From the NCBI RefSeq assembly GCF_019443325.1, contig NZ_CP080383.1, positions 3,038,001 through 3,102,000 of the forward strand: 64,000 bases of DNA, written 5' to 3'. A program made the translations under genes and the position numbers. Shown piece after piece: positions 3,424-25,150 of the stretch (positions are counted from its first letter, which is position 1; each line of letters starts with the position of its first letter). The stretch comes from Cryobacterium sp. PAMC25264 (GTDB taxonomy: Bacteria > Actinomycetota > Actinomycetes > Actinomycetales > Microbacteriaceae). The notes below the pieces were generated by a model, which worked only from the letters and a program-made list of their open reading frames with translations, searched no databases and had not been told where the DNA came from.

Positions 3424-5730
3424 GTGACCGCTGTTTCCAACACATCCTCCCGCGGCGTCGCTGACACCGTGACCAATGCGATCAACACTCCCGAGAAGGA
3501 GCAGCCGTACGCTGCCCTCGGGTTGACGCCCGGCGAGTACGCCGAGATTCGCACCATCCTGGGCCGCCGCCCCACGAGCGGTGAGCTCGCCATGTACTCG
3601 GTGATGTGGAGCGAGCACTGCTCCTACAAGAGCTCGAAGAAGTACCTGCGCCAGTTCGGCGACAAGGTCTCCCCCGCCATGAAGAAGAACCTGATGGTGG
3701 GCATGGGCGAGAACGCCGGCGTGCTCGACGTGGGTGAGGGCTGGGCCGTCACCTTCAAGATCGAGTCGCACAACCACCCCTCCTACATCGAGCCGTTCCA
3801 GGGCGCTGCCACCGGCGTCGGCGGCATCGTGCGCGACATCATCTCGATGGGCGCCCGCCCGGTGGCCGTGATGGATGCCCTCCGTTTCGGTGACATCAAC
3901 GACCCTGACACCGCCCGCGTCGTGCACGGTGTGGTCTCCGGCATCTCGTTCTACGGCAACTGCCTGGGCCTGCCCAACATCGGCGGCGAGACCTGGTTCG
4001 ACTCCGTCTACCAGGGCAACCCGCTGGTCAACGCGCTCTCCGTTGGCGTGCTCCGCCACGAGGACCTGCACCTGGCCAACGCCTCGGGCGCCGGCAACAA
4101 GGTGGTGCTCTTCGGAGCCCGCACCGGCGGCGACGGCATCGGCGGCGCATCCATTCTGGCCTCGGACACCTTCTCTGAGGGCGGCCCGACCAAGCGCCCC
4201 GCCGTGCAGGTGGGCGACCCGTTCGCCGAGAAGGTGCTCATCGAGTGCTGCCTCGAGCTGTACCGCGAGAAGCTCGTCGAGGGTATTCAGGACCTGGGCG
4301 CCGCGGGCATCTCCTGCGCCACCAGCGAGCTGGCCTCAAACGGCGACGGCGGCATGTACATCCAGCTGGAGAAGGTGCTGCTGCGCGACCCCTCGTTGAC
4401 CGCCGAAGAGATCCTGATGAGCGAGAGCCAGGAACGTATGATGGCCGTCGTCACGCCGGAGAAGCTCGCCGGATTCCTCGCGGTGGTTCAGAAGTGGGAC
4501 GTGGAGACCAGCGTGCTCGGCGAGGTCACCGACTCCGGCCGCCTGATCATCGACTTCCACGGCGAAGAGATCGTGAACGTCGACCCGCGCACCGTCGCCG
4601 TCGACGGCCCGGTCTACGACCGCCCGGTGGCCTACCCCACCTGGATCGATGCCCTGCAGGCCGACAGCGCGTCGGCGCTGCCCCGGGCGACGGATGCCGC
4701 CACCCTGCAGGAGCAGTTCCTCGCGCTGCTCGGCTCGCCCAACCTGGCCGACCCGAGCTGGATCACCGACCAGTACGACCGCTACGTGATGGGCAACACC
4801 GCCCTCTCCTTTCCGGACGACGCCGGCATGATCCGAATCGACGAGGAGTCGGGCCTCGGCTTCGTCATCTCCACCGACGCCAACGGCCGCTACTGCCAGC
4901 TCGACCCCTACCGCGGCGCCCAGCTGGCCCTCGCCGAGGCGTACCGCAACGTGGCCGTCACCGGCGCCGTGCCGGTGGGCATCAGCGACTGCCTCAACTT
5001 CGGCTCGCCGGAGAACCCCGAGGTCATGTGGCAGTTCTCCCAGGCCGTGACGGGTCTGGCGGATGGCTGCCTCGAGCTGGAGATCCCGGTCACCGGCGGC
5101 AACGTGTCGTTCTACAACCAGACCGGCGACCAGCCGATCCACCCCACCCCCGTGGTGGCCGTGCTCGGCGTGATCGACGACGTCGCCCGCCGCGTGCCGA
5201 GCGGCTGGCAGGACGACGGACACAACATCTACCTGCTCGGCATCACCCGCGAAGAGCTCGACGGCTCCGCGTGGAGCGCCGTGGTGCACGACCACCTCGG
5301 TGGCGTGCCGCCCATGGTGGACCTCGGCCGCGAGGCAGACCTCGCCGGTCTGCTGCACGCCGCCTCGATCGAGGCTCTCATCGACAGCGCGCACGACCTC
5401 TCCACGGGCGGCCTCGCGCAGGCCCTCGCCGAGGCCGTGCTCCGGTTCGGTGTGGGCGCCCGGGTCTGGCTCGGCGACATCCTCGAGCGCGACGGCATCG
5501 ACGCATCCGTGGCCCTGTTCTCGGAGTCGACCGGCCGCGTGCTGGTGAGCGTGCCCCGCGAAGACGACGTCAAGTTCCTCGGTCTCTGCGAAGGCCGCGA
5601 CTACCCGGTGCTGCGCATCGGCGTGACGGATGCGACCGCCCCGGTCCTGGAGATCCAGGACTACTTCACGGTGCCGCTGACCGAACTGCAGTCCCGTCAC
5701 CGCAGCACGCTGCCCAACGCGTTCGCGTAG
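3424..5730 (+). CDS. purL: Phosphoribosylformylglycinamidine synthase subunit PurL
   Basis: PurL (768 aa) catalyses the ATP-dependent amidation of FGAR to FGAM in purine biosynthesis, with ammonia supplied by PurQ and PurS coded elsewhere. Visible blocks include [17 protein letters not shown] near residue 59, the active-site stretch [20 protein letters not shown] near 116, and two AIRS-like halves with the second starting near residue 450. The length fits the standalone actinobacterial enzyme. An in-frame start is possible as far upstream as 3028, but I chose GTG 3424 because GGGAGAAC at 3409-3416 is a good ribosome site and the extra upstream residues are not PurL-like. A palindromic terminator follows at 5751. 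Confidence 0.97.
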
Positions 5731-5750
5731 GCAGCTGCCGCATCACCGCT

Positions 5751-5805
5751 GAGTTGCCGCGAAATGCCCTTTCCCGTTCCGGGAGGGGGCATTTTTCGGC
5801 TACTC
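5751..5805. terminator. Palindromic bidirectional terminator, GAGTTGCCGCGAAATGCCC family
   Basis: Left arm 5751-5769 and right arm 5787-5805 pair at 16 of 19 positions, and the loop holds a further short CCCG/CGGG pairing. It lies between the convergent purL and the unknown gene ending at 5822, so it can stop transcription both ways. The left arm shares GAGTTGCCGCGAA with the palindrome at 27858, suggesting a dispersed repeat family. Confidence 0.7.
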
Positions 5806-5821
5806 GGCACCCGGGGGCGGC

Positions 5822-6493
5822 TCAGGGGCGGCGGCGAAGCGGGGTGCGCGGCGGGAGCGCGGCCAGAGCGGCGTTGTAACGCATCCGCGGCGGGTCGGCC
5901 GCGAGGGCGTCGAGGGATTCGGGGGTCGCGGTGGCCAGTGGGAACGCCGTGATCAGGCGCATCCGCCCGGCGTCGTGCACCCCATAGATCAGGGCAGCGC
6001 CGGAGTGCTCTGGCACGCTCACCACCGTGGTGCGAAAGACCGTGCCCGCTCGGGCTCCCGCAGCCGAGGCGTCCGGCTCGGGCACCTCGTCGTCGATCAC
6101 CAGAACGTCGCCGAGCTCGGCCGACGGATGCGCCAGATGCGGCAGCGCGGTATCCGTCACCCTCTCGAGCACCGTCTGTCCCGCCGCCTCGGCAGACTCG
6201 AGCACAAACGCATCGGGCGCCAGCCCCAGCCGGGCGGCCAGCTCACCCTCCCGCCACCGGTCGCCCTTCAGACCGAACGGCGTGTGCACTGTCGACAGCA
6301 GATAGCCGTAGACGTGCAGCAGACCCGCGTTGCCGATCGGCCAGGTCGCCGAGAGTCCCGCCGCCGCGTGCAGCGTGTCGAACTGGGCCCGGGAGATGAC
6401 CGGTGACAGCACGTTCTCGTCGATCACCGTGGACAGCGCCCAGTGCTCGAAGCGGTCGGCGGCGGCATCCCTGGCGATCTGCTCGAACATCAT
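5822..6493 (-). CDS. Conserved-looking protein of unknown function
   Basis: I do not recognise this 223-aa protein. It is soluble, with no signal peptide or membrane segment. The N-terminal third (FEQIARDAAADRFEHWALS) looks helical. Near residue 65 there is an aromatic stretch (LLHVYGYLLSTVHTPFGLKG) followed by GDRW, and a VLVIDDE strand near 135. The C-terminus is basic (LPPRTPLRRRP). ATG 6493 is chosen over a TTG at 6520 because TTG starts are rare and the earlier residues add nothing; a second ATG follows at 6490. It is convergent with purL and divergent from the HAD phosphatase. Codon use matches its neighbours, so it is very likely a real gene. Confidence 0.7.
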   Translation of the reverse strand: MMFEQIARDAAADRFEHWALSTVIDENVLSPVISRAQFDTLHAAAGLSATWPIGNAGLLHVYGYLLSTVHTPFGLKGDRWREGELAARLGLAPDAFVLESAEAAGQTVLERVTDTALPHLAHPSAELGDVLVIDDEVPEPDASAAGARAGTVFRTTVVSVPEHSGAALIYGVHDAGRMRLITAFPLATATPESLDALAADPPRMRYNAALAALPPRTPLRRRP

Positions 6494-6635
6494 CTGCCCA
6501 TCGTAGGCATGTGCGCCCAACGGGCGCCGGCGGAAGGTTTACACGCTGTTCACCTGGCGCGGTCATTTAGTCCATATGCGACTCCTAACATGAACCATGC
6601 GTCCATCTGGTGCGCGGGAACAGGAATGGGTGAGT

Positions 6636-7400
6636 GTGCTTTCTCGCGATCGGGTGTTGGTCTTCGACTTCGACGGGACCGTTTCCCTCGGGCACGGACC
6701 GATTCGCTCGTACGCGCGATTCATCGCCGCAGGGCTGCCGGCCGGCTTGGCCGTGGAGTTTCTCGGCCGCTTCGAAGCCGGCCTCTCCGACACGCCTGTC
6801 GACCCCGATGGGCACACTCGGCCGATCGACGGGTACGACCTGGTGCGGCTTCTGGCTCAGCGGTACGACGTGACGGCGAACGCCCGGAGTGCGGCCTACC
6901 TGGCCAGCCGACGGGAGCTCGCCACCCACGCGGCCCCGGTCACCTCGCCCGCCGGCCTGGCCGATTTCCTCGCCGAGGCCCGCCCGAGCGCCTACCTTGT
7001 TCTGGCAACGAATGCCCCCGCCATCCGCATCGACGAAGCGCTCTCCGCGCTCGGTCTGGCCGGAGCCTTCGATGCCGTGCACACCTCCGTGGGCAAACCG
7101 GCCGGCTTCGCCCCACTGTTGGACAACCTGCTGGCCGTGTTGCCCGTCGGAGCGCCCACCGCCCACCTCACCAGCATCGGCGACGTCTGGGAGAACGACC
7201 TCGACCCCGCCCACCGGCTCGGCGCCACCACCGCGCTCGTCGGTGCCACGCCCCCCGCCGCCGCCACCCCGACCTACCGGGCCGATCACCTGCACGAGCT
7301 GTATCCGGCGCTGCGGGCCTGGCTCGAATCCGACGTTCCTCCCGCACCCGCCCATCCCACTTCCACCACCGCATTCCCCACAGAAAAGGCTGACCAGTGA
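6636..7400 (+). CDS. HAD-superfamily phosphatase
   Basis: Haloacid dehalogenase-type hydrolase (254 aa). Motif I is DFDGTVS near residue 9, with the nucleophile Asp and acid/base Asp both present; motif II is the Thr of VLATNAP near 125; the motif III Lys lies near 150 (SVGKPAGF); motif IV is IGDVWENDLDPA near 180. GTG 6636 is preferred because AGGAA at 6622 is well spaced; GTG 6630 and ATG 6597 are in-frame alternatives. The stop overlaps the next start by 4 bases (GTGA), tying it to the phn-type transporter. A role in dephosphorylating the imported compound, or an intermediate made from it, is inference from position; no phosphonatase cap features are obvious. Confidence 0.85.
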   Translation: MLSRDRVLVFDFDGTVSLGHGPIRSYARFIAAGLPAGLAVEFLGRFEAGLSDTPVDPDGHTRPIDGYDLVRLLAQRYDVTANARSAAYLASRRELATHAAPVTSPAGLADFLAEARPSAYLVLATNAPAIRIDEALSALGLAGAFDAVHTSVGKPAGFAPLLDNLLAVLPVGAPTAHLTSIGDVWENDLDPAHRLGATTALVGATPPAAATPTYRADHLHELYPALRAWLESDVPPAPAHPTSTTAFPTEKADQ

Positions 7401-8371
7401 TTCCCAAGAAAGCACTCTCCTTCGTCGCCGCGGCATCCTTCGCCGCCCTCGCCCTCACCGGCTGCGCCACCAGCTCGGCCGCGGACGGCACCGCCGCGCC
7501 GGCCGCAGATCCCGAGTCGCTGACCCTGGCCCTGGTTCCCTCGCAGGACCAGGCCGGCCTCGTCGACACCGCCAAGCCGCTCACCGACATGCTCACCGAG
7601 GCCCTGGGCATCCCCGTCACCGGTGTGGTCTCCAAGGACTACCAGGCCGCCGTCGAGGCCATGGGCGCCGACCAGGCCCAGATCGGCTTCCTCCCGTCGC
7701 TGCAGCTCTGGCAGGCCAGCGACATGTACGGTGCATCTGTCGTTCTGCAGACCGAACGCAACGGCAACATCACCTACCCGGCTCAGTTCATGACCAACAA
7801 CCCCGACAAGTACTGCGACGACGCCCCGGTGGAGCGTGACGGCATGCTGTTCTGCAACGGCGCCGACGCCCTCGCTGGACCTGCCGGCCTGGACTCCATC
7901 GACAAGGTCACCGGCGCCAAGGTGGCACTGCTCGGCCCCGGCTCGCCCGCCGGCTACATCTACCCCGTGCTCGCACTGAAGAACGCGGGGCTCGACACCG
8001 ACAACGACATCGAGCAGATCCCCGTCACCACCAACGACGCATCCGTGCTCGCCGTCTACAACGGCGACGCCGAGGTGGGCTTCAGCTTCTGGGATGCCCG
8101 CACCATCGTGGCCAAGGACAAGCCCGACGTGGGCGAGAAGGTCGTGGTGTTCGCGTTGACCGATGAGATCCCCAACGACGGTGTCGCCCTCACCAAGAGC
8201 CTCTCGCCCGAACTGCAGGACAAGATCACCGCGGCCCTCGCCGACTATTCCAACACCGAGGAAGGCTCTGCCGTGCTCACCTCGATCTACTCGATCACCA
8301 AGCTCGCGCCCGCCGACCCGTCGACGCTCACCGTCGTCGCCGACGCGGCCACGAAGCTGGGACTGCAGTAA
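7397..8371 (+). CDS. phnD: Phosphonate/phosphite-type ABC transporter substrate-binding lipoprotein
   Basis: PhnD-family periplasmic-type binding protein, 324 aa. It has a lipoprotein signal peptide with lipobox LTGC (Cys about residue 21), so it is anchored outside the membrane. The mature protein begins with LTLALVPSQDQAGLVDTAKP, the family's first strand with the anion-contacting loop. GPGSPAGYIYP near 178 is the usual G(S/P)xSG-like ligand loop, and FSFWDART near 230 is the conserved second-lobe region. Start GTG 7397 overlaps the phosphatase stop. PhnD-type proteins bind phosphonates, phosphite or hypophosphite; the ligand here cannot be assigned. Confidence 0.92.
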   Translation: MIPKKALSFVAAASFAALALTGCATSSAADGTAAPAADPESLTLALVPSQDQAGLVDTAKPLTDMLTEALGIPVTGVVSKDYQAAVEAMGADQAQIGFLPSLQLWQASDMYGASVVLQTERNGNITYPAQFMTNNPDKYCDDAPVERDGMLFCNGADALAGPAGLDSIDKVTGAKVALLGPGSPAGYIYPVLALKNAGLDTDNDIEQIPVTTNDASVLAVYNGDAEVGFSFWDARTIVAKDKPDVGEKVVVFALTDEIPNDGVALTKSLSPELQDKITAALADYSNTEEGSAVLTSIYSITKLAPADPSTLTVVADAATKLGLQ

Positions 8372-8374
8372 CCG

Positions 8375-9196
8375 ATGACCGACTCTCACGAGCGCGCGGC
8401 GGCCGGGGTGCACACCTCGGCCGCCGCGCCGTGGTCGATCCGGATGCAGGACGTCACGGTGCGTTACCCCAACGGGGTCGTCGCACTGAAGAATGTGTCG
8501 CTCACCATCGAGGCCGGCGAGATGGTCTCGGTGGTCGGGCTGTCCGGGTCGGGCAAAAGCAGCCTGATCCGCACCATCAACGGGCTCGTTCCGATCATCT
8601 CCGGCACCCTGGAGGTAGGCGGACGACACCTGGAGACCGCCCACGGACGGGAACTGCGCCAGCTGCGCGGCGAGATCGGCATGATCTTCCAGGGCTTCAA
8701 CCTGGCCCGCCGCGCCAGCGTGCTGAACAACGTTCTGGTGGGCCGACTCGCTCACACGCCCACCTGGCGCACCCTGCTCGGGCTGTACCGGGCGGACGAC
8801 AAGCAGATTGCTTACGAGGCATTGAACAGCGTCGGTATTCTCGCCAAAGCATATGACCGCGCCTCCACCCTTTCGGGCGGCCAGCAGCAGCGGGTCGCCA
8901 TCGCGCGCGCGCTGACCCAACAGCCCAAACTGGTGCTCGCCGACGAACCCGTCGCCAGCCTCGACCCGCCCACCGCCCACGGTGTGATGCGGGACCTGCG
9001 CCGGATCAACCAGGACCTCGGCATCACGGTGCTCACCAACCTGCACCTGCTCGATCTGGCCCGCACATATGGCACCCGGCTGATCGGCCTGCGCGCCGGC
9101 GAGGTCGTCTACGACGGCCCGGCCGCCACGGCGTCCGACGCCGTGTTCGAAAGCATCTATGGCCGGTCGATCCAGCACGAGGATGTGCTCGGCTGA
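8375..9196 (+). CDS. phnC: Phosphonate-type ABC transporter ATP-binding protein
   Basis: PhnC-type ATPase, 273 aa, energising the importer made by the adjacent genes. Walker A is GLSGSGKSS near residue 55, the Q-loop is in MIFQGFNLA near 107, the signature is LSGGQQQR near 166, Walker B is [14 protein letters not shown], and the switch His lies in [10 protein letters not shown]. Start ATG 8375 follows the phnD stop by 3 bases and the stop overlaps the next ATG by one base. All catalytic residues are present. Confidence 0.94.
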
Positions 9197-9999
9197 TGAG
9201 CACGCCGGTACCGCTGGTTCTGCCGCCGAAGCCACGCGGACGCTGGAAACCCTGGCTGGGTCTGGTTGTTGTGCTGCTCATCACGGGGATCACACTGAGC
9301 CCGCAGTGGGGCATCGCCTTCAGCGTCGACGCGATCGTGCGCAACTGGCAGAACGGCGCCGACAAGGTTCTCGCGCTCCTGAGCCCGGACTGGTCGTTCT
9401 TCCCTCGCACCATCCCTCCGCTGGTGGAGACCCTGCAGATGGCGGTGATCGCCACCTTCGTCGGCGCCGTCGTGTCGCTGCCGCTCAGCCTTTGGGCGGC
9501 CCGGCTGACCAATCCGAACCGGTACACCCGCGGCCTGGTCAAGACGGTGCTGAACGCCGTGCGGTCCATTCCCGACCTGCTCTACGCATCCGTGCTGGTG
9601 GCGATGGTGGGTGTCGGCGCCCTGCCGGGCATCATCGCGTTGGTGCTGTTCAACGTGGGCATCATCGTGAAGATGGTGTCGGAGTCGATCGAGGTGAACG
9701 ACGCCGGCCCGCTCGAAGCCGGCCGGGCCGCCGGCGGCACCCAGTTGCAGATCAACCGCGCCATCGCGCTCACGGATGCCTGGCCCGCGTTCGTCAACCA
9801 GACCCTCTACGTGCTCGAGCTCAATGTGCGCGCCTCCACCGTGCTCGGCCTGGTGGGCGCCGGCGGACTGGGCCTGCTCATCGATGCCGTGCGCACCTTC
9901 TACCGCTACGACCAGTTGTCGCTGATCATCCTCGAGATTCTCGTGGTGGTCGTCGTGATCGACTCGGTGAGCGCCTTCATCCGAAAGAGGCTGGTATGA
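9196..9999 (+). CDS. phnE: Phosphonate-type ABC transporter permease (first)
   Basis: PhnE-family inner-membrane permease of 267 aa, about six transmembrane helices. The cytoplasmic coupling loop reads EAGRAAGGTQLQINRAIAL near residues 175-195, close to the EAA motif of importer permeases. The gene overlaps phnC by one base and the following permease by four. A tandem of two different phnE genes is a common form of this transporter; the two products probably form a heterodimer. Confidence 0.93.
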   Translation: MSTPVPLVLPPKPRGRWKPWLGLVVVLLITGITLSPQWGIAFSVDAIVRNWQNGADKVLALLSPDWSFFPRTIPPLVETLQMAVIATFVGAVVSLPLSLWAARLTNPNRYTRGLVKTVLNAVRSIPDLLYASVLVAMVGVGALPGIIALVLFNVGIIVKMVSESIEVNDAGPLEAGRAAGGTQLQINRAIALTDAWPAFVNQTLYVLELNVRASTVLGLVGAGGLGLLIDAVRTFYRYDQLSLIILEILVVVVVIDSVSAFIRKRLV

Positions 10000-16558: not shown

Positions 16559-17845
16559 TTAGTCGATCAGGTCGTGGCGGGTGAGGATGGCCTCGCGGTC
16601 GGGGCCGACGCCGATGGCGGAGATGCGGGCGCCGCTCATGGCCTCGAGAGCGAGGACGTAGTCCTGGGCGTTCTTCGGGAGGTCCTCGAAGTGGCGCACC
16701 ATGGTGATGTCCTCGGTCCAGCCGGGGAACTCCTCGTAGACGGGCTTGGCGTGGTGGAAGTCGGACTGGGAGACGGGCACCTCGTCGTAACGCACGCCGT
16801 CTACCTCGTAGGCAACGCAGACGGGGATGGTGTCCAGGCCCGTGAGCACGTCGAGCTTGGTGAGCACGAAGTCGGTGACGCCGTTGATGCGCGCCGTGTA
16901 GCGGGCGATCGGGGCGTCGTACCAGCCACAGCGGCGCGGGCGGCCGGTGGTGGTGCCGAACTCGAAGCCCTTGGCGCGCAGGAACTCGCCGGACTCGTCG
17001 AACAGCTCGGTGGGGAACGGGCCGGCGCCGACGCGGGTCGTGTACGCCTTGACGACCGCGATGATGCGGTCGATGCGGTTCGGGCCGATGCCAGAGCCGG
17101 TCACCGCGCCGCCCGAGGTGGCGTTGGACGACGTCACGAACGGGTAGGTGCCGTGGTCGACGTCGAGCATGGTGGCCTGGCCGCCCTCGAACAGCACGGT
17201 CTTGCCGGCGGTGAGGGCCTGGTGCAGCAGCAGCGCGGTGTCGGCGACCATGGGCCGCAGGCGCTCGGCGTAGCTGAGCAGGTCGTCGACGATCTCGTCG
17301 ACGGTGATGGCGCGGCGGTTGTACACCTTGACCAGCATGTGGTTCTTCTGGCCGAGGGCGCCCTCCACCTTCTGGCGCAGGATGTTCTCGTCGAACAAGT
17401 CCTGGATGCGGATGCCGACCCGGTTGATCTTGTCGGCGTAGGTGGGGCCGATGCCGCGCCCGGTGGTGCCGATCTGGCGCTTGCCCAGGAACCGTTCGGT
17501 GACCTTGTCCATCGTGCGGTGGTACTGGGTGATCACGTGCGCGTTGGCGCTGACGCGAAGCTTCGACACGTCGACGCCGCGGGAGCTGAGCGCGTCGAGC
17601 TCCTCAAAAAGCACCTCGATGTCGACGACGACGCCGTTGGCGATCACCGGGGTGACGCCGGGGGTGAGAATGCCCGAGGGCAGCAGGTGCAGAGCGTACT
17701 TCTCACTGCCGACGACCACGGTGTGGCCGGCGTTGTTGCCGCCGTTGAACTTGACGACGTAGTCGACCCGGCTGCCGAGCAGGTCGGTGGCCTTGCCCTT
17801 ACCTTCGTCGCCCCACTGGGCGCCGATCAGAACGATGGCTGGCAT
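16559..17845 (-). CDS. purA: Adenylosuccinate synthetase PurA
   Basis: PurA (428 aa) makes adenylosuccinate from IMP, aspartate and GTP, the first committed step to AMP. The N-terminus [18 protein letters not shown] carries the GTP-binding loop with catalytic Asp13. NGGNNAGHT near 35-43 holds the catalytic His and IMP contacts, [12 protein letters not shown] lies near 126 and the Arg-containing [14 protein letters not shown] near 298. The length is standard. It sits 3 bases after the DUF3151 gene, an arrangement common in actinobacteria as far as I recall. The terminator at 16504 follows. Confidence 0.98.
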
Positions 17846-17848
17846 AGC

Positions 17849-18367
17849 TTAGTTTTCTCCTTGGATAAAGAAGGCAGCGGTCGGCGGGGCCGGGTCCTCG
17901 CCTGGTGAAACGGCGGGCGGAACCGCCGGGAAATCCTGGGAGTCGGCCGCCTCGGAGCGCAGCAGCGGGATGACGGTGGCGTCGGCCCCGTTCAGGAACT
18001 CGGTGAGGCGTTCGAACTCGTCGGTCTCGCCGATCTCGTCCGCGGCGCGGCGGAGGGCGAACAGGGCGCGGAGCACCCCGCGGTTGGGTGCGTGCGACCA
18101 CGGGATCGGGCCCTGGCCGCGCCAACCGGCCTTGCGCAGCGCGTCGAGGCCGCGGTGGTAGCCCACCCGGGCATACGCGTAGGCCTCGAGCAGTCGGCCC
18201 TGAGAGTGGGTCACGTCCGCGAGGGCTGCCCATGCCAGCGACGACTTCGGATGCGCCGCCACAACGGTTGTTATATCTTGCATTCCGGTTCGGCTGAGCG
18301 CCTCAGTCACCTCCGGTTCCGCGGGTAGGAGGGTCTCGGGCTGTTCGATCAGATTTGCGCCGGTCAC
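17849..18367 (-). CDS. DUF3151 domain-containing protein
   Basis: 172-aa protein with the look of the actinobacterial DUF3151 family. The core includes HPKSSLAWAALADV near residue 38, EAYAYARVGYHRGLDALRKAGW near 60-80, and PIPWSHAPNRGVLRALFALRRA near 86-107, an arrangement of TPR-like helical pairs. The C-terminal 30 residues are acidic and Pro-rich. Its function is unknown. It lies directly upstream of purA with a 3-base gap and is very likely co-transcribed with it; no link to purine synthesis is shown. Confidence 0.82.
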   Translation of the reverse strand: MTGANLIEQPETLLPAEPEVTEALSRTGMQDITTVVAAHPKSSLAWAALADVTHSQGRLLEAYAYARVGYHRGLDALRKAGWRGQGPIPWSHAPNRGVLRALFALRRAADEIGETDEFERLTEFLNGADATVIPLLRSEAADSQDFPAVPPAVSPGEDPAPPTAAFFIQGEN

Positions 18368-18407: not shown

Positions 18408-18452
18408 GTGAGTTAAGCACCGCAAATCGCGAGAATTAGGTGCTTAAGTCAC
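18408..18452 (-). terminator. Palindromic terminator, GTGAGTTAAGC family
   Basis: Arms 18408-18421 and 18439-18452 pair at 13 of 14 positions around a 17-base loop. The right arm overlaps the TetR stop codon (18449-18451), so the element probably ends the YhgE/TetR operon. Outer flanks GCGAACC and GCTCGC extend the symmetry. It shares 17 identical bases with the element at 16504. Confidence 0.7.
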
Positions 18453-19039
18453 AGCTCGCGGGAGGGAGGCGCGAGTAGGCCGCCGGAGAGGGACTCGAGG
18501 ATCGCGGCGGTGACCTCGTCACGATCCCGGTCGGGCTCGAAGACCAGCCACTCCAGGCCCGCCATCAGCACGGCGCCGAACACACTTGACGCCATCAAAC
18601 CGCTGGTGCCGGCCGCTGCAGTTGTCGGCCGGGCCTCTGCGATCGCCTCGGCGAACACCGCGAGGGCGTCGTGCCGAAGCGCGAACAGGGTCTTCTGCCA
18701 GGCCCTGTCGGTGCGGAAGATCTCGGCGGCCATCAGCTTGGCCAGGCCGGCGTTGGCCTCGATGCGGTCCAGCAGGACCGTGATCAACGACTCCAGGGCG
18801 GCCGGGCCCTGCAGGCCGGTGCGCGCCCCGCGGAGGGTGTCGGCCAGTGCGCCGACCCCCTCCTGCAACAGTGCCTCGAAGAGCTTGTCCTTCGAGCTGA
18901 AGTTGTAATACAGGCTGCCCTTGGCCACCCCGGCCAGCTCCGCGACATCGTCCATCGTGGTGCCGGTGATGCCCCGGGTGGCGGCCAGCGTCAACGCGGC
19001 ATCCAGGATCGCCCGTTTCGTTCCGGTGGCGCGGGGCAT
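18449..19039 (-). CDS. TetR family transcriptional regulator
   Basis: 196-aa TetR-type repressor: a helix-turn-helix at about residues 9-55 with GITGTTMDDVAELAGVAKGSLYYNF, then a helical ligand domain in which AAEIFRTDRAWQKTLFALRHDALAVF spans the middle. It is the last gene of the minus-strand operon after the degenerate ATPase and YhgE protein. The obvious targets are the two ACYGACCAGTCAGT palindromes at 21920 and 22003, which lie between this operon and the divergent one. The regulation assignment is inference from position and palindrome symmetry. Confidence 0.9.
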   Translation of the reverse strand: MPRATGTKRAILDAALTLAATRGITGTTMDDVAELAGVAKGSLYYNFSSKDKLFEALLQEGVGALADTLRGARTGLQGPAALESLITVLLDRIEANAGLAKLMAAEIFRTDRAWQKTLFALRHDALAVFAEAIAEARPTTAAAGTSGLMASSVFGAVLMAGLEWLVFEPDRDRDEVTAAILESLSGGLLAPPSREL

Positions 19040-19076
19040 GATTAGTCCTTTCGTCGCTCTCGGTGCGGGTCGAAAC

Positions 19077-21209
19077 CTAGATGGTCAGTTCAGGATGCAG
19101 CCGTGTGATAGTCCACATCCGTTGCCGCGACGCGCTCCAGGCGCTGATGGCTATCGAGCCGACCAGGATGCCTACGAGAACGAGCACGGAAAGCCACAGT
19201 CTAGAGTCGATCCCTCCGGTGATGAGCTGGCGGAGTCCGGTGACGACGTAGGAGGCGGGCATCCAGGGGTGCAGGATCTGGAAGAACTCCGGCGTCGTCT
19301 CCACAGGGTAGGTGCCGCCGGACGAGCTGAGCTGCAGCATCAGCAGCACCAGGCTGGCCACACGCCCGGCCGCGGTGCCGAACAGAATGATGAACATCTG
19401 CTGCAACGCCAGGAAGGCCAGGGTGGTGAGGTAGATGAAGGCCGACATGCCCAGCCAGTGCGCCGGGGTGAGACCGAGGCCGTAGACCAGCACCAGAACC
19501 ATGATCACGACCTGGCTGAGGCCGATCGCCATGGCAGGGAGGAACCCGGTCATGGTGGAACGCAGCCCTGACGACGCGCTGGCCAGTGCTCGAGTGGGCA
19601 GGGCCCGCAGAATCAACCAGGTGATCAGTGCGCCGACGAAGGTGGCCAGAGCCAGGAAGAACGGGGCGAAGCCTTCACCGAAGCTGCCGGAAGCGTTCTC
19701 CCAGGTCTGGGTGAGGTCGACAGGGTTCGCGATCACCGAGGCCTTCGCATTGATCTGGTCGTCACTGTCGTCGGGGGCATCCGCCGCGCCGCTCGCCAGC
19801 GCGTCGGCGAGGGTGTGGCTGCCCTCGGCGAGTTGCCCGGTGCCACTCAACAGGGTGCTTGCGCCGTCGACCAGTCGGGTGCTGCCATCGACGAGGGATC
19901 CGGTTCCGGCGGCCAGGCTGTCGGCGCCGTCGGCAAGGGTGGTCGCTCCGGTGGCCGCGTTCATTGCGCCGCCGGCGAGTTGGCCGGCACCGGCCGAGAG
20001 AGCGGTGGCGCCCGTCGCGACATCCGAGGCCCCTGTCGCCACCTGGGCGGCACCGGGAGCACCCGCAGTCAGGGCGCTGGAGAGCGCGCCCAGTTTGGTC
20101 GCGAATTCACCGTCTTTGGCGGCGTATCCCGCCGTCTGGGCCGCGGCGCCCTGCACCTTGGTGGTGAGCTGGCCCGCCCCGGTGGAGAGCTCCGTCACCG
20201 ACGGCAGGAACGCGGTGGCCGGCGTGCCGGCCGGCGCCGCCGCCATGGCCGCTTCGAGGGCGCTCAGCTTGTCGGAGAGTGTGGACGTCGCGGTGGCGAG
20301 CTGACCGGTACCGGTGGAGATGTCCGTGGCCCCGGTGGCCAACTGCGTCGACGCCTCGGCCAGGGCACCCGCACCGGATGCCGCGGCGCTCATGCCGTCG
20401 GACACCTGCTGGGCTCCGCCCGCGACGCTTGTTGCACCGGCCGCGAGCTTCACCGACGAGTCGGACAGGGTGGTCGCGCCGGTGGAGAGGGTGCCGAGGC
20501 CGGTTGACAGGGTTGACGAGCCGTCGGCGAGTCGCCCAGCGCCGTCGTCGAGGGTGACGGCACCGGCGGAGAGGTCACCCAGACCGTCGACGAGGGTACC
20601 CGTGCCGGTTTGGGCGGTGCTCAGGCCGTCGGCGAGGGTTCCGGCGCCGTCCGCGGCGTCGCGGATGCCGTCGCCGGCTTCGTTCACGGCCACGAGCATC
20701 GCGCTGACGGTCTGATCGCCGATGTTCAGCGACACGGCGTCGCGCAGCTGCACCATGGCCTGCTTGCCCAGGGTGGAGGCGAGGAAGCTGTTGCTGTCGT
20801 TGTAGTCGACCTGCACCTCGGCTGGGGTGGGGGTGTCGGTGCCGGCGGAGACGGCATCCGTGGAGAAGTCGGCGGGGATCGTGACGGAGAAATAGTAGTC
20901 GCCGTCGATCACGCCGGTGGCGGCATCCGCGGCGCTGGTTTCGACCCAGCCGAGATCGTTGCCGTCGAGCAGTTTGTCGACCAGGTCGTCACCGGCCGTG
21001 ACCGGGTCACCGTCGCGGGTGGCGCCGGTGTCTGCGTTGACCAGGGCAACGGGGAGGTTACTGAGCTCCTTGTCGGGTGCCCAGAACGCCCAGAGGTAGA
21101 GGGCGCCGTAGATGAGGGGAATGAACATGAGCACGACGAGCGCGATCTTGGGCAGGGTGCCCTTGCCGAAACGGCGCAGTTCAGTGCCGGTTGAGAGGAA
21201 GGCGAACAT
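19077..21209 (-). CDS. YhgE/Pip domain membrane protein
   Basis: 710-aa membrane protein of the YhgE/phage infection protein (Pip) type, related in layout to ABC-2 permeases. One membrane helix at about residues 22-42 (ALVVLMFIPLIYGALYLWAF) is followed by a conserved extracytoplasmic domain (LPVALVNADTGA near 51; YYFSVTIPADFS near 106). A long Ala/Gly/Thr-rich region of repeating LAxGAxxL units at about residues 175-480 is probably coiled or rod-like, and about five C-terminal helices follow from 520 on. It starts one base after the degenerate ATPase stop. It may be exported or envelope-spanning; its role is unknown. Confidence 0.88.
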   Translation of the reverse strand: MFAFLSTGTELRRFGKGTLPKIALVVLMFIPLIYGALYLWAFWAPDKELSNLPVALVNADTGATRDGDPVTAGDDLVDKLLDGNDLGWVETSAADAATGVIDGDYYFSVTIPADFSTDAVSAGTDTPTPAEVQVDYNDSNSFLASTLGKQAMVQLRDAVSLNIGDQTVSAMLVAVNEAGDGIRDAADGAGTLADGLSTAQTGTGTLVDGLGDLSAGAVTLDDGAGRLADGSSTLSTGLGTLSTGATTLSDSSVKLAAGATSVAGGAQQVSDGMSAAASGAGALAEASTQLATGATDISTGTGQLATATSTLSDKLSALEAAMAAAPAGTPATAFLPSVTELSTGAGQLTTKVQGAAAQTAGYAAKDGEFATKLGALSSALTAGAPGAAQVATGASDVATGATALSAGAGQLAGGAMNAATGATTLADGADSLAAGTGSLVDGSTRLVDGASTLLSGTGQLAEGSHTLADALASGAADAPDDSDDQINAKASVIANPVDLTQTWENASGSFGEGFAPFFLALATFVGALITWLILRALPTRALASASSGLRSTMTGFLPAMAIGLSQVVIMVLVLVYGLGLTPAHWLGMSAFIYLTTLAFLALQQMFIILFGTAAGRVASLVLLMLQLSSSGGTYPVETTPEFFQILHPWMPASYVVTGLRQLITGGIDSRLWLSVLVLVGILVGSIAISAWSASRQRMWTITRLHPELTI

Positions 21210-21887
21210 CTAGCGAATCTCCTGGTTCATGTAGAGGACGGTCGGGTCGATGCCCAGTTCCGCCCACATGTCGGCGTCGGGTGCGATCGCCGAGGCGATC
21301 ACGGGGGTGCCGGCTGCCACGATGGCTCCGAGGCGCTGCCAGAGCTGGCGGCGCGCTTCAGGGGAGTGCACCTGCTCGACCTGGTCGAAGAACAGGAGGT
21401 TGGGCTCGCTCATCATGGCCAGCGAGGCGCGCAGCAGCACCATCTCCACCTCGTCGAGGTCCCAGATCATGGTGCTGGCGGCGGGGATGGCGATGTCGCC
21501 GAAGACCGGACCGCAGACCCGGCTCACCTCGGCGTCGTCGACGGCACGTATGAAGGACCACCACGGGGCGAGCCAGGCGTGCCGTTCACGGATGGCCGCG
21601 CCCACGCTGACCGACTCCTCGAGGCTGTCGATGCCGTGGAAACCCGAGACTCCGGTGCTGCGCTGCACGCGCCGCGCGCGCCGGGGCAGGTCCTCCCCCA
21701 GCACCGTGAGGGAGCCGGCGGTGGGCTTCATACGTCCGGCCAGGGTCAGCAGCAGGCTGGTGCGGCCGCTGCCAGCCGGCCCGCAGATCACCGTGAGGCC
21801 GGTGTCGGCGCTGAAGCTGAGCGGCCCGTAAACCACTCCCCGTTTGTAGCTCACGCTCAGGTCTTCCGCTACCAGTGTCGTCTGCAC
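21210..21887 (-). CDS. Degenerate ABC-type ATP-binding protein
   Basis: 225-aa ABC ATPase-like protein partnered with the YhgE protein whose gene follows immediately. The Walker A equivalent is GPAGSGRT at residues 36-43, with Arg in place of the invariant Lys. The LSGGQ signature is replaced by WDLDEVEMVLLRA, and Walker B reads LLFFDQVEQ, with Gln where the catalytic Glu normally sits. Hydrolysis is therefore doubtful; a structural or nucleotide-sensing role is possible. GTG 21887 is chosen because AGAGAGGA lies 6 bases upstream; the frame continues much further 5' through the control region and is not believable there. Its product may regulate rather than power the membrane partner. Confidence 0.85.
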   Translation of the reverse strand: MQTTLVAEDLSVSYKRGVVYGPLSFSADTGLTVICGPAGSGRTSLLLTLAGRMKPTAGSLTVLGEDLPRRARRVQRSTGVSGFHGIDSLEESVSVGAAIRERHAWLAPWWSFIRAVDDAEVSRVCGPVFGDIAIPAASTMIWDLDEVEMVLLRASLAMMSEPNLLFFDQVEQVHSPEARRQLWQRLGAIVAAGTPVIASAIAPDADMWAELGIDPTVLYMNQEIR

Positions 21888-21919
21888 GTCGATCCTCTCT
21901 TGCCGGCTCACGTTTTTGT

Positions 21920-21933
21920 ACCGACCAGTCAGT
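21920..21933. promoter_or_regulatory. Putative TetR operator 1
   Basis: Palindrome ACCGACCAGTCAGT with 6-base arms around CA, one mismatch in the left arm. It lies 33 bases upstream of the minus-strand ATPase start. It is an almost exact copy of the site at 22003 and has the size and symmetry of TetR-family operators. Confidence 0.65.
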
Positions 21934-22002
21934 ATAGATCCGTCGCCGGGGCGGGTGCAACCGGGGGCTCGCTTTGTGCCGTGTCTGAGCGTTCGTCCAG
22001 AA

Positions 22003-22016
22003 ACTGACCAGTCAGT
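22003..22016. promoter_or_regulatory. Putative TetR operator 2
   Basis: Perfect palindrome ACTGACCAGTCAGT (6-base arms around CA) in the divergent control region, about 105 bases before the plus-strand pseudo-ATPase gene. Together with the copy at 21920 it suggests that one TetR regulator, probably the product of 18449-19039, represses both operons. Confidence 0.68.
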
Positions 22017-22121
22017 AGAAAACGGGCCTAGAGTATGACCCCTGGTCGCAGCGCCGCGACGCCACTCCCCCAGGCTGGGTCCGCGTCGAACCGGGCTCCC
22101 CGCGACCCCCGGAGGCGCTCT

Positions 22122-22796
22122 ATGCGCGTGAACCTCACTGCTGTCACCAAAGGACCGAAAGACTCGGCCCTGCCGCCGACGACCCTGGAATTCGGCAGTG
22201 GCACCGTGACCTTCGCGCGCGCCGAGACCGAACGTCGCCCCACGGTCCTCGGCCTCGTCGCCTCCGGCCGGATGCGCCCGGACTCCGGCGCCGTGACCCT
22301 GGACGGCCGCACCGACTATGCGGGACTGCGCCGCCAGATCGCCCTCGTCGACGCCCTCGGGGTCTCCGAGCCCGCCGCCGATGTGCGAGTGGAGGACGTG
22401 GTCGCGGAGGAACTGATGTTCGCCGGCCACCTCGGTCGCCGCCGCACCGTTCGGAGGATGCTCGCCGACTTCGGCCTGGCCGACCAGGCCCGCTCCGATA
22501 TGGGCGACCTCGCCCCAGACGACCGGGTGCGGCTGCTCACCGAGCTGGCCGTGCTGCGTGACGGGGTGCTGGGCCTGGTGCTCACCTCCCCCGACCGGCA
22601 CGGTGGCGACCCCCTGGGCTGGTGGGACGTGGCCGGCGGCCTGGCGGCGCGCGGCTATGCCGTTCTCGTCATCGCGGGTGACGCATCCGCCCACGCCATT
22701 GCCGACCTGGAACTCGCCAACCTCGAACCGTCCGGCGTGCTCCCCGCCGGACTCGTCCGCTCCGCTCACGACAGCATGGGAACCGCCGCACTGTGA
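22122..22796 (+). CDS. ABC ATPase-like protein lacking Walker A
   Basis: 224-aa protein that follows the ABC ATPase fold order but has lost its catalytic motifs. After two N-terminal strands, the place of the P-loop reads FARAETERRPTVLGLVASG with no Gly-rich Lys loop. GRMRPDSGAVTLDG near 50 is the normal post-Walker A strand, VVAEELMFAGHLGR near 105 matches the helical subdomain, and the signature and Walker B positions read DLAPDDRVRLLTELAV and LGLVLTSPDR. ATG 22122 follows GGAGG by 6 bases. The stop overlaps the next start by 4 bases. It is probably a non-hydrolysing partner of the YhgE protein encoded next. Confidence 0.8.
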   Translation: MRVNLTAVTKGPKDSALPPTTLEFGSGTVTFARAETERRPTVLGLVASGRMRPDSGAVTLDGRTDYAGLRRQIALVDALGVSEPAADVRVEDVVAEELMFAGHLGRRRTVRRMLADFGLADQARSDMGDLAPDDRVRLLTELAVLRDGVLGLVLTSPDRHGGDPLGWWDVAGGLAARGYAVLVIAGDASAHAIADLELANLEPSGVLPAGLVRSAHDSMGTAAL

Positions 22797-25150
22797 AGAT
22801 CTTCGCCATGATCCGCGCCGAACTGGCGCGCCTGACCGCCACCACGATGTCCCGGGTCGCCCTCGTGGCCCTGATGCTCGTGCCCGTGCTCTACGGCGGC
22901 CTGTACCTGTGGGCCAACCAGGACCCGTACGCGGGCCTGGACCGGGTACCGGTCGCCCTGGTGGTGGCCGACACCGGCGCCGAGTCCGACGGCACGGCGA
23001 CGAACTACGGGTCGGATGTCGCCGAGCAGCTCATCGACGACGGCACCTTCGACTGGCACACAGTCACCGCCGACACCGCCCAGGCCGGCGTCGCCGATGC
23101 CACCTACGACTTCAGTGTCACGATCCCCGCCGATTTCTCCAGCTCGATCGCTTCCTCGTCGACGGATTCGCCGCACCAGGCCACCATCACCCTCACCACG
23201 AACGACACCAACAGCTACCTCGCCTCCACGATCGGCAGCCAGGCGGCACAGAGCATCCGGGACGCCATCGTGGCCCGGGTGAACGAGCAAGCCGCCGACC
23301 AGCTGCTCATCGGGCTCTCCGACATCCGCTCGAGCCTGGTCGACGCGGCCGACGGCGCGGGCCAGCTCACGGATGGCGCGGGCACCGCCGCCGACGGCGG
23401 CTCCAGCCTGGCTGATGGCGCGAGCCAGCTCGCCGACGGCACCGGCCAGCTGGCCTCGGGCGCCGGCAGCCTGGCCGACGGTACCGGGAAGGTCGCCGAC
23501 GGCGCCAGCAAGGTGGCCGACGGCACGGGCCAGGTGGCCTCGGGCGCCGATGCCCTGGCGACGGGAGCGGGCACGCTGAGCACGGGTGCCGGCAGCCTGG
23601 CCGCCGGCACGGCGCAGGTCGCCACGGGCGCAGACTCTCTCGCGACGGCGACCGGCCAGGTGGCCGACGGCACCGCCGCACTCTCGCAGGGCGCCGCATC
23701 CCTCGCCGACGGCACGGGCAAGGTCTCGGCGGGAGCAGCCCAGGTGGCCACCGCCGCCCAGAAGGTGGCCGACGGCACGGCGGCGTTGAACACGGCCGCG
23801 CAGCAAGCGTCCGCCGGCGTCGCCGGGGCCGGCGCCGTCTACACCGCCGCACAGACGGCCCTGGCCGACCAGCTCACTGCCGACGGCCTGAGCCCTGCCC
23901 AGATCGATGAGGCCCTGGCGACCCTGACTCCGATCGGCGGCACCCTCACCCAGAGCGGAGCCGCCCTGACGCAGGCGGGCACCGCCATCGCCACCCTGTC
24001 GACCGGCACCACCCAGCTGGCCGCTGGAGCCGCCGCGACGGCCACCGGCGCCCAGCAGAGCGCCGACGGGGCCACGACCCTGGCCACCGGCGCGGCTACG
24101 GCGTCGGCCGGAGCCCGCAAGACGGCCGATGGTGCAGCCACCCTCGCCACCGGTGCCCACCAGAGCGCCGACGGGGCCAGCGCCCTCGCCACCGGGGCCG
24201 GCCAGGCCGCGAGCGGAGCGTCCACTCTGGCCGCAGGAGCCGACCAGACCGCCGCAGGCGCCGCGACCCTGAGTTCCGGCGCGACCTCCGCCGCCACCGG
24301 CGCCGCGACCCTGTCGACGGGCGCCAGCTCGGCCAAGACCGGCGCGGACAGTCTCGCCACCGGAGCCTCCTCGCTCAGCGACGGGCTGCTCGGCCTCAAG
24401 ACCGGGGCGGGCACCCTGCGCGACGGGCTGACCAACGGCGTCAACAGCATCCCCGACACTGATGCGACCACCCGCGACCTGCAGGGCTCCACCATCGCCG
24501 ACCCGGTCGACCTGCAGAAGGCGGCCGTGACGTCCGCCGGCACTTACGGCGCCGGGCTCGCCCCGTTCTTCGCGAGCCTGGCCGGCTGGATCGGGATCTA
24601 CGCCCTCTTCCTGATCGTGAAGCCGGTCTCCCGCCGCGCCATCACGGCGTTGCACTCGCCGCTGAAGATCACCCTGGCCGGCTGGCTCACCCCTGGGATC
24701 CTGGGGCTGCTGCAGATGGCGGCGCTGTTCGGGATCCTCACCGGCGTGCTGCACTTCGAGGTGCACAACCCGGTAGGCACCTACGCGATGATGGGCCTGG
24801 CCGCGATGACGTTCGCGGCGATCATCCTCGCGCTGAACGTGTGGCTGGGAAGCGTGGGACAGTTCGTCGGGCTCGTGCTCATGGTGATCCAGTTGGTCAC
24901 CGCTGGCGGGACCTTCCCGTGGCAGACCCTGCCCGCTCCCCTGGCATTTCTGCACCACGTGATGCCGATGAGCTACGCGGTCGACGGCATCCGTCAGCTG
25001 ATGTACGGCGGAAACCCGGCCACCGCGTTGAACGACGCCGGCGTGCTGCTGCTCTGGCTGACCGGGGCGCTGGTGCTCGCCGCGATCGGCGTGGTGCGGA
25101 TGACGCACTTCCGCACCCTGCGCGACCTCAAACCCAGCCTGATCGGCTAA
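22793..25150 (+). CDS. YhgE/Pip domain membrane protein with long repeat region
   Basis: 785-aa paralogue of the protein encoded at 19077-21209. It has an N-terminal membrane helix at about residues 18-40 (ALVALMLVPVLYGGLYLWA), the conserved domain PVALVVADTGAESDG near 50 and FSVTIPADFSSS near 105, and then residues 185-560 of DGAxxLAxGA-type repeats very rich in Ala, Gly, Thr and Asp. About five C-terminal helices follow from residue 590. It starts GTG 22793 inside the pseudo-ATPase stop. The repeats should form an elongated extracytoplasmic rod. Its function is unknown; Pip homologues are phage receptors in some Gram-positives, and EsaA of type VII secretion is distantly related. Confidence 0.88.
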   Translation: MKIFAMIRAELARLTATTMSRVALVALMLVPVLYGGLYLWANQDPYAGLDRVPVALVVADTGAESDGTATNYGSDVAEQLIDDGTFDWHTVTADTAQAGVADATYDFSVTIPADFSSSIASSSTDSPHQATITLTTNDTNSYLASTIGSQAAQSIRDAIVARVNEQAADQLLIGLSDIRSSLVDAADGAGQLTDGAGTAADGGSSLADGASQLADGTGQLASGAGSLADGTGKVADGASKVADGTGQVASGADALATGAGTLSTGAGSLAAGTAQVATGADSLATATGQVADGTAALSQGAASLADGTGKVSAGAAQVATAAQKVADGTAALNTAAQQASAGVAGAGAVYTAAQTALADQLTADGLSPAQIDEALATLTPIGGTLTQSGAALTQAGTAIATLSTGTTQLAAGAAATATGAQQSADGATTLATGAATASAGARKTADGAATLATGAHQSADGASALATGAGQAASGASTLAAGADQTAAGAATLSSGATSAATGAATLSTGASSAKTGADSLATGASSLSDGLLGLKTGAGTLRDGLTNGVNSIPDTDATTRDLQGSTIADPVDLQKAAVTSAGTYGAGLAPFFASLAGWIGIYALFLIVKPVSRRAITALHSPLKITLAGWLTPGILGLLQMAALFGILTGVLHFEVHNPVGTYAMMGLAAMTFAAIILALNVWLGSVGQFVGLVLMVIQLVTAGGTFPWQTLPAPLAFLHHVMPMSYAVDGIRQLMYGGNPATALNDAGVLLLWLTGALVLAAIGVVRMTHFRTLRDLKPSLIG

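Follow-up and report, generated by a model that had tools for sequence, protein, structure and literature searches.

YhgE/Pip modules with degenerate ABC nucleotide-binding domains and predicted shared TetR control in Cryobacterium

In some Gram-positive bacteria, proteins of the YhgE/Pip family are factors for phage entry; in the part of the literature consulted here their cellular function is described as not known (PMC4999554). The chromosome of Cryobacterium sp. PAMC25264 encodes two such proteins, YhgE-A and YhgE-B, within a stretch of 64,000 nucleotides (contig NZ_CP080383.1, positions 3,038,001 to 3,102,000; hereafter the window). Each lies next to an ATPase-like protein, which we name the nucleotide-binding domain (NBD) of its module. 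The locus raises the question of what these permeases do with a partner that resembles the motor of an ATP-binding cassette (ABC) exporter and lacks the residues of one. By computation we follow here the gene layout, the loss of catalytic residues, the predicted folds, the co-inheritance of the pairs, the operator footprint and a fusion of the NBD to an MMPL protein in relatives. On balance, and by somewhat more than an even chance, we favour ABC-shaped YhgE modules that are not driven by ATP, in which a dead NBD would serve as clamp or adaptor and a TetR-family regulator would repress both modules.

NBDs without ATPase motifs and their YhgE partners

Neither NBD of the window carries the hallmarks of an active ABC ATPase, namely the Walker A lysine, an LSGGQ-type signature and the Walker B glutamate. 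In NBD-A, Walker A reads GPAGSGRT (Lys to Arg), Walker B reads FFDQ (Glu to Gln) and WDLDEVE stands at the signature position instead of LSGGQ. An exchange of Glu to Gln, for example E163Q in LptB, is of a type that serves to hold ABC proteins with ATP bound. NBD-B has no P-loop (AETERRPT), no signature and no Walker B carboxylates, and SPDRHGG occupies the would-be Walker B and D-loop. Neither Pfam (at E up to 1) nor NCBIfam (at E up to 0.1) recognises it, and its predicted structure is an ABC nucleotide-binding domain fold without the P-loop.

Judged by their residues, this degeneracy is the rule across the sample and not a local oddity. Among 191 distinct YhgE-linked NBDs, both window proteins included, none has the Walker B Glu and none the signature S-G-G, compared with 9/10 and 6/10 of canonical ABC controls from the same genome and alignment. 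Nine of the ten controls show Walker Lys, signature Ser, Walker B Asp and Glu; the tenth (L370) has no motif and is probably in the wrong frame. The signature and Walker B columns were derived by adding sequences to a seed alignment. The Glu column is gapped in 19 of the 191; in 17 of these a residue other than Glu comes next in the raw sequence, and two sequences that are cut short read Asp-Asp. At the Walker A lysine position Lys is found in 9, Arg in 52, His in 26, Pro in 98 (with the P-loop gone) and other residues in 6. The column of the H-loop His is gapped in all 191 in this alignment, and pairwise alignment of NBD-A with ABCA4 places no His there. In the 80 YhgE loci of named genomes, Walker A takes the form GxGRT in two Streptomyces and GxGH(T/V) or near variants in Kribbella, Saccharopolyspora and others, and its place is taken by AETEQRPT- or VETEQAPV-like sequence in Microbacteriaceae. 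An earlier note on this DNA had called the ATPases degenerate and supposed the ATPase-like subunits to be regulators or scaffolds; these counts speak for subunits that are non-catalytic. We infer that the linked NBDs are dead as ATPases.

Both partners are YhgE/Pip proteins. The N-terminal profile TIGR03061 scores 178.8 bits for YhgE-A and 181.8 for YhgE-B (cut-off 96.15), and the C-terminal TIGR03062 scores 208.4 and 198.1 bits (cut-off 102.2). Heptad repeats XXXLXXG (TIGR03057) form 9 stretches in YhgE-A and 7 in YhgE-B and are modelled as long helices. The model of YhgE-B has an N-terminal membrane-type helix, a small alpha/beta domain, the long heptad-repeat helices and a C-terminal helical bundle, and it corresponds to one half of a type V ABC exporter, with a transmembrane domain of the ABCG/ABCA class. 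A match of the repeats to the BpaC adhesin (7o23) was put down to repeat composition, because the model is helical there. Like the phage infection proteins of Lactococcus and Enterococcus, the window proteins have an N-terminal helix and a C-terminal helical bundle that are separated by a large region. They differ in their partner NBD, as the sections consulted of a paper on Enterococcus Pip name no ATPase-like partner (PMC4999554). The relation to EsaA/YueB of type VIIb secretion, which the earlier note had raised for EsaA, goes no further than a related N-terminal domain: with the EsaA profile TIGR03929, whose cut-off is 122 bits, the two proteins reach 44.4 and 60. A type VII link was set aside on that score; no search for other type VIIb genes was made. 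Compared with type V ABC exporters (ABCG/ABCH/ABCA and bacterial ABC2_membrane_3), the window YhgE proteins differ by the long heptad-repeat helices inserted after the N-terminal domain and by a linked NBD that, to judge by its sequence, has no working nucleotide site.

The exporter-half fold of YhgE-B would also fit a true ATP-driven ABC exporter, in which the dedicated NBD is one degenerate half and a shared canonical ABC ATPase encoded elsewhere provides the other, or in which unusual residues of the NBD carry out the hydrolysis. Some actinobacterial importers use a shared ATPase (MsiK), and the nine members with Walker A Lys, several of which have a Walker B Asp, point in the same direction. 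We consider such an exporter unlikely. Heterodimeric ABC transporters in which one site is degenerate likewise contain an NBD without Walker B Glu and signature, but, in the portions of the literature consulted, heteromeric exporters retain one consensus site, whereas every linked NBD in this sample is degenerate. Moreover, NBD-B lacks the P-loop entirely, and no canonical ABC gene was seen among the few neighbours scanned.

More doubtful again is a nucleotide sensor, in which A-type NBDs would bind ATP without hydrolysing it and so gate YhgE, and B-type NBDs would have shifted to another ligand by way of their conserved P(D/E)RHGG motif. Many A-type members do retain Walker A Arg or Lys and Walker B Asp. 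The named loci comprise 73 distinct NBDs; at the would-be Walker B/D-loop, 65 of them keep P(D/E)RH and 52 keep P(D/E)RHGG, so the site is under selection. Against a sensor stands the loss of the P-loop in the Microbacteriaceae B-type and in the MMPL-fused type described below.

Locus layout and inheritance of the pairs

In the window, purA/DUF3151 is followed downstream by the two divergent modules (Table 1), module A with NBD-A, YhgE-A and TetR and module B with NBD-B and YhgE-B. The layout given in the earlier note was confirmed: there are five genes, and the 234-bp gap between the starts of NBD-A and NBD-B, from which both operons run, holds both palindromes. Within the pairs, the stop codon of NBD-A directly abuts the start of YhgE-A, and YhgE-B overlaps NBD-B by 4 bases. 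YhgE-A and YhgE-B are indeed paralogues, with identities of 44% across 172 residues at the N-terminus and 32% across 223 C-terminal residues. We set the start of NBD-B at the ATG where its homologues begin and GGAGG lies just 5'; the open frame reaches back to 22035.

Table 1. Features of the two-module locus and of the third YhgE module in the same genome. Positions are those of the window unless another sequence is named.
Feature	Position	Strand	Basis or remark
purA/DUF3151	16559-18367	-	
TetR-family regulator	18449-19039	-	last gene of module A; PF00440 (TetR_N) E 8.4e-18
YhgE/Pip permease A, 710 aa	19077-21209	-	TIGR03061, TIGR03062, TIGR03057, ABC2_membrane_3
NBD-A, degenerate ABC NBD, 225 aa, GTG start	21210-21887	-	PF00005 (ABC_tran) 31.1 bits, cut-off 25
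Candidate TetR operator, module A side, TACCGACCAGTCAGTA	21919-21934		palindrome and conservation
Candidate TetR operator, module B side, AACTGACCAGTCAGTA	22002-22017		palindrome and conservation
NBD-B, 224 aa	22122-22796	+	predicted ABC NBD fold; P(D/E)RHGG and GRM motifs conserved
YhgE/Pip permease B, 785 aa	22793-25150	+	TIGR03061, TIGR03062, TIGR03057
Third module: MMPL with C-terminal, predicted dead NBD, then YhgE	L142 (G000:C1:2026500-2040500) 4869-9980		
YhgE of the third module	C1:2031368-2033320		with degenerate NBD

Each NBD-YhgE pair is inherited on its own. The NBD lies directly 5' of YhgE in 79 of the 80 loci of named genomes, and the 80th is cut by a contig end; these are the best 80 of at least 593 loci and lean to relatives of YhgE-B, as our sampling in general leans to relatives of the window. 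Matches to NBD-B at E 1e-25 or better occur in 86/199 genomes of the family. We fetched 60 loci from the 85 other genomes with such a match, and YhgE-B follows NBD-B directly on its 3' side in all 60; purA falls within the fetched stretch in 36. Distances between NBDs and between YhgE proteins correlate with r 0.90, a value reached in 0/2000 permutations (Mantel test, n=54), and the same 31-member B clade appears in both trees. One row is discordant: for the third lineage of the window's genome, the NBD tree gives a place with B and the YhgE tree a place with A. In locus L039 an extra YhgE-like gene (4159-5793, with NBD-B oriented forward), 29-33% identical, lies directly 5' of the B module.

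The earlier note had joined modules A and B into one four-protein envelope machine, an idea suggested by their divergence from one control region with one TetR. The nearest named relatives of the window's proteins are from Cryobacterium, which we take to be the genus of the sample used here. In this genus sample of 57 genomes, some of them drafts (cut-offs E 1e-10 for B and 1e-20 for A), the modules are in fact adjacent and divergent in 10, the window's included, and an eleventh (G492) carries them 1.65 kb apart. The same sample contains NBD-B in 25 genomes and NBD-A in 18; 11 have both, 14 B alone, 7 A alone and 25 neither, and the genomes with a single module still keep TetR and operator. 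Outside the genus, B has no module A beside it in 59 of the 60 fetched loci, L059 being the exception. Two genomes of the same genus as that of L059 (G063, G182) have module A next to purA, where B is not found, and three others (G017, G098, G160) contain both modules at different places. Because each module persists alone, we reject the four-protein machine as the main explanation and hold it to be very improbable. Of the observations that the earlier note had named as speaking against itself, homologues with intact ATPases were absent from the sample, but the divergence is indeed not conserved outside the genus. Plasmid-borne spread was also considered and dropped, as 21210-22800 had no match in a plasmid collection. 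Neighbours of a few distant YhgE loci, for which selected genes were scanned, depend on the lineage (polA, GNAT, GH65, penicillin amidase and others) and include no MMPL gene.

Decay of an ordinary ABC exporter into pseudogenes, to which the stepwise loss of motifs and the stops or splits in a few NBD-B matches (G185, G132, G007, G093, G494, G506) might point, is hardly credible and, as regards A and B in the lineage of the window, largely refuted by conservation: most NBD-B matches are open, invariant residues replace the ATP motifs in a 20-sequence NBD-B alignment, and the median dN/dS of about 0.15 (0.152 for NBD-A and 0.151 for NBD-B; six orthologues plus the window and 21 pairs for each) indicates strong purifying selection on both NBDs.

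Predicted operators and the TetR regulator

The two palindromes in the gap share the core CYGAC-YR-GTCAG. When up to 3 mismatches are allowed, a 15-base pattern matches both strands of the window 5 times against 1.64 expected, and 3/100 shuffles reach 5, so that this chance test alone is weak support. A stricter 14-base pattern (ACYGACYRGTCRGT) has exact matches at just two places in the 4.06-Mb genome, which is a single contig, both in this gap; there are 16 further places with one mismatch, and a reversed-pattern control gives 17 places with at most one mismatch. One of the one-mismatch copies lies 5' of the third module (G000:C1:2036875-2036888) and may be due to chance, given that the genome holds 16 of them.

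Stronger evidence than these statistics comes from conservation across genomes. Outside the genus, module A is likewise an operon of NBD-A, YhgE-A and TetR. We scanned 450 bp 5' of NBD-A in 20 A-type loci. A TetR match is present in 12, and all 12 have the palindrome, 11 with the exact core and one (L135) with one-mismatch cores only. The exact core is also present in L128, where the contig ends before a TetR would be visible, and it is absent from this interval in the seven loci without a TetR match (0/7). In B-type loci of other genera no exact core was found within 350 bp of NBD-B (0/60); four of the 60 have a one-mismatch core, and among these L092 alone has an adjacent TetR.

Within the genus, two sites with no more than one mismatch are present in nine of the ten genomes with adjacent divergent modules, the window's among them; the tenth, G514, shows a single site. 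In G492, where the modules are separated by about 1.65 kb (L295, 4222-5867), each keeps its own site. In all 14 B-only genomes TetR and NBD-B are direct, divergent neighbours and flank one exact-core site. In all 7 A-only genomes TetR belongs to the operon, and NBD-A is preceded by an exact-core site. In the B-only genome G519 a C-terminal piece of YhgE-A remains between site and TetR and is, by its sequence, a scar of lost module A genes. The regulator combines a TetR_N domain with a palindrome that is conserved together with the gene, as is found for a TetR with local, here predicted, operators. A scan of 21800-22200 for sigma-70 promoters gave no promoter-like site. The operator footprint across genomes and the sole two exact places in this genome lead us to regard TetR as the local regulator of both modules. 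Its control of both, through predicted operators in front of each, is well supported and agrees with the earlier note. By analogy to its family, TetR presumably acts by repression and not by activation.

A third lineage fused to MMPL and what the modules may do

The genome encodes a third YhgE with a degenerate NBD (Table 1), and relatives of it are found in 62/199 family genomes at E 1e-60. From the 61 other genomes we fetched 20 loci, partly chosen for long open frames. In all 20 an MMPL gene lies upstream, an NBD is in frame with its C-terminal half and YhgE follows. A profile confirms the fused NBD in 19 of them, and in L349 it is seen by tblastn alone; Pfam reported no ABC domain in the four MMPL-NBD proteins that were scanned. 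Common to this lineage and MMPL (RND) transporters is thus the MMPL protein (PF03176) 5' of YhgE, whereas the third-lineage protein differs by its C-terminal, apparently dead ABC NBD. In the window's genome the module adjoins a trehalose-6-phosphate synthase/phosphatase-type gene. In G412, from another family, an alignment spans the MMPL-NBD junction beside its YhgE. The fusion of this genome (L169, 2052-3518) has an intact Walker A (GPSGSGKT) and lacks the signature and the Walker B Glu; on these motifs it is perhaps nearer to the ancestral state. In Saccharopolyspora hirsuta, a table of an expression study lists a YhgE gene 3.8-fold and an MMPL gene of the neighbouring locus number 3.3-fold up with cholesterol, and its authors thought most of the 28 induced genes not to be linked to sterol breakdown (PMC9782250).

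The reading of ABC-shaped modules not driven by ATP can then be put as follows. Each module would be a self-sufficient pair of a YhgE permease and a dedicated NBD unable to hydrolyse ATP. YhgE would be folded like one half of a type V ABC exporter, from which a long helical stalk extends outside the membrane. The NBD, at the position of the motor in an ABC exporter, would contact it there as a clamp or adaptor that holds the YhgE dimer. In the third lineage the MMPL-fused NBD would tie YhgE to a proton-driven lipid pump, and this fusion is the best hint that a dead NBD can be an adaptor. The substrate is probably a lipid or a lipophilic compound of the envelope. TetR, on one operator before each module, would repress both, and an inducer would cause both to be made together.

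Several observations weigh against this reading. Modules A and B have no MMPL gene beside them; an adaptor role for their NBDs is therefore carried over from the third lineage. The MMPL-NBD gene of the window's genome is interrupted by one frame break, located near L142:7975. Among 197 genomes sampled across the class, fusion alignments longer than 240 residues occur in only 4, namely the window's genome, G079 of the same family, G412 and G637 (the last two from another family), and most other matches listed cover the MMPL end alone. The YhgE model has a moderate pTM of 0.53. In Foldseek its matches to ABC exporters lie at E just above 0.001, and the sole match below that value is a coiled-coil receptor model. 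The Mantel correlation partly reflects shared descent. Loss of residues, as the nine members with Walker A Lys and those with Walker B Asp recall, is not proof of absent ATPase activity. Finally, in a phylum sample, 10 of 29 YhgE loci have no recognisable NBD within 1.5 kb on the 5' side, so that YhgE can apparently do without a linked NBD; five of these ten (L166, L167, L170, L171, L172) are from genomes of distant Actinomycetota with two tandem YhgE genes.

In titles and abstract openings of the open-licence literature we found no description of a YhgE-linked ATPase-like protein or of an MMPL-NBD fusion. Current annotation hides the putatively dead NBDs: among the names shown, B-type proteins are mostly called hypothetical protein, with some UniRef entries as ABC transporter ATP-binding protein, and A-type proteins mostly ATP-binding cassette domain-containing protein. 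To our knowledge, it is unusual for an ABC protein that none of the linked nucleotide sites is functional. Of wider significance is a conserved system of YhgE modules with the shape of ABC exporters in which, on the residues they carry, all linked NBDs of the sample appear dead, and these pairs suggest a machine that is built like a transporter and does not run on ATP. A wider extension, which we offer tentatively and regard as possible but not the probable case, is that across Actinomycetota YhgE/Pip proteins are shaped like ABC exporters and work without ATP, with dead NBDs as cytoplasmic adaptors to other motors, most plainly MMPL, and that the window holds two stand-alone members co-induced through TetR. 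The linked dead NBDs and the MMPL fusion may serve as handles on independence from ATP, on the ligand of the NBD and on whether YhgE helps MMPL proteins to move lipids across the wall, and the TetR operator would offer a route to the inducer.

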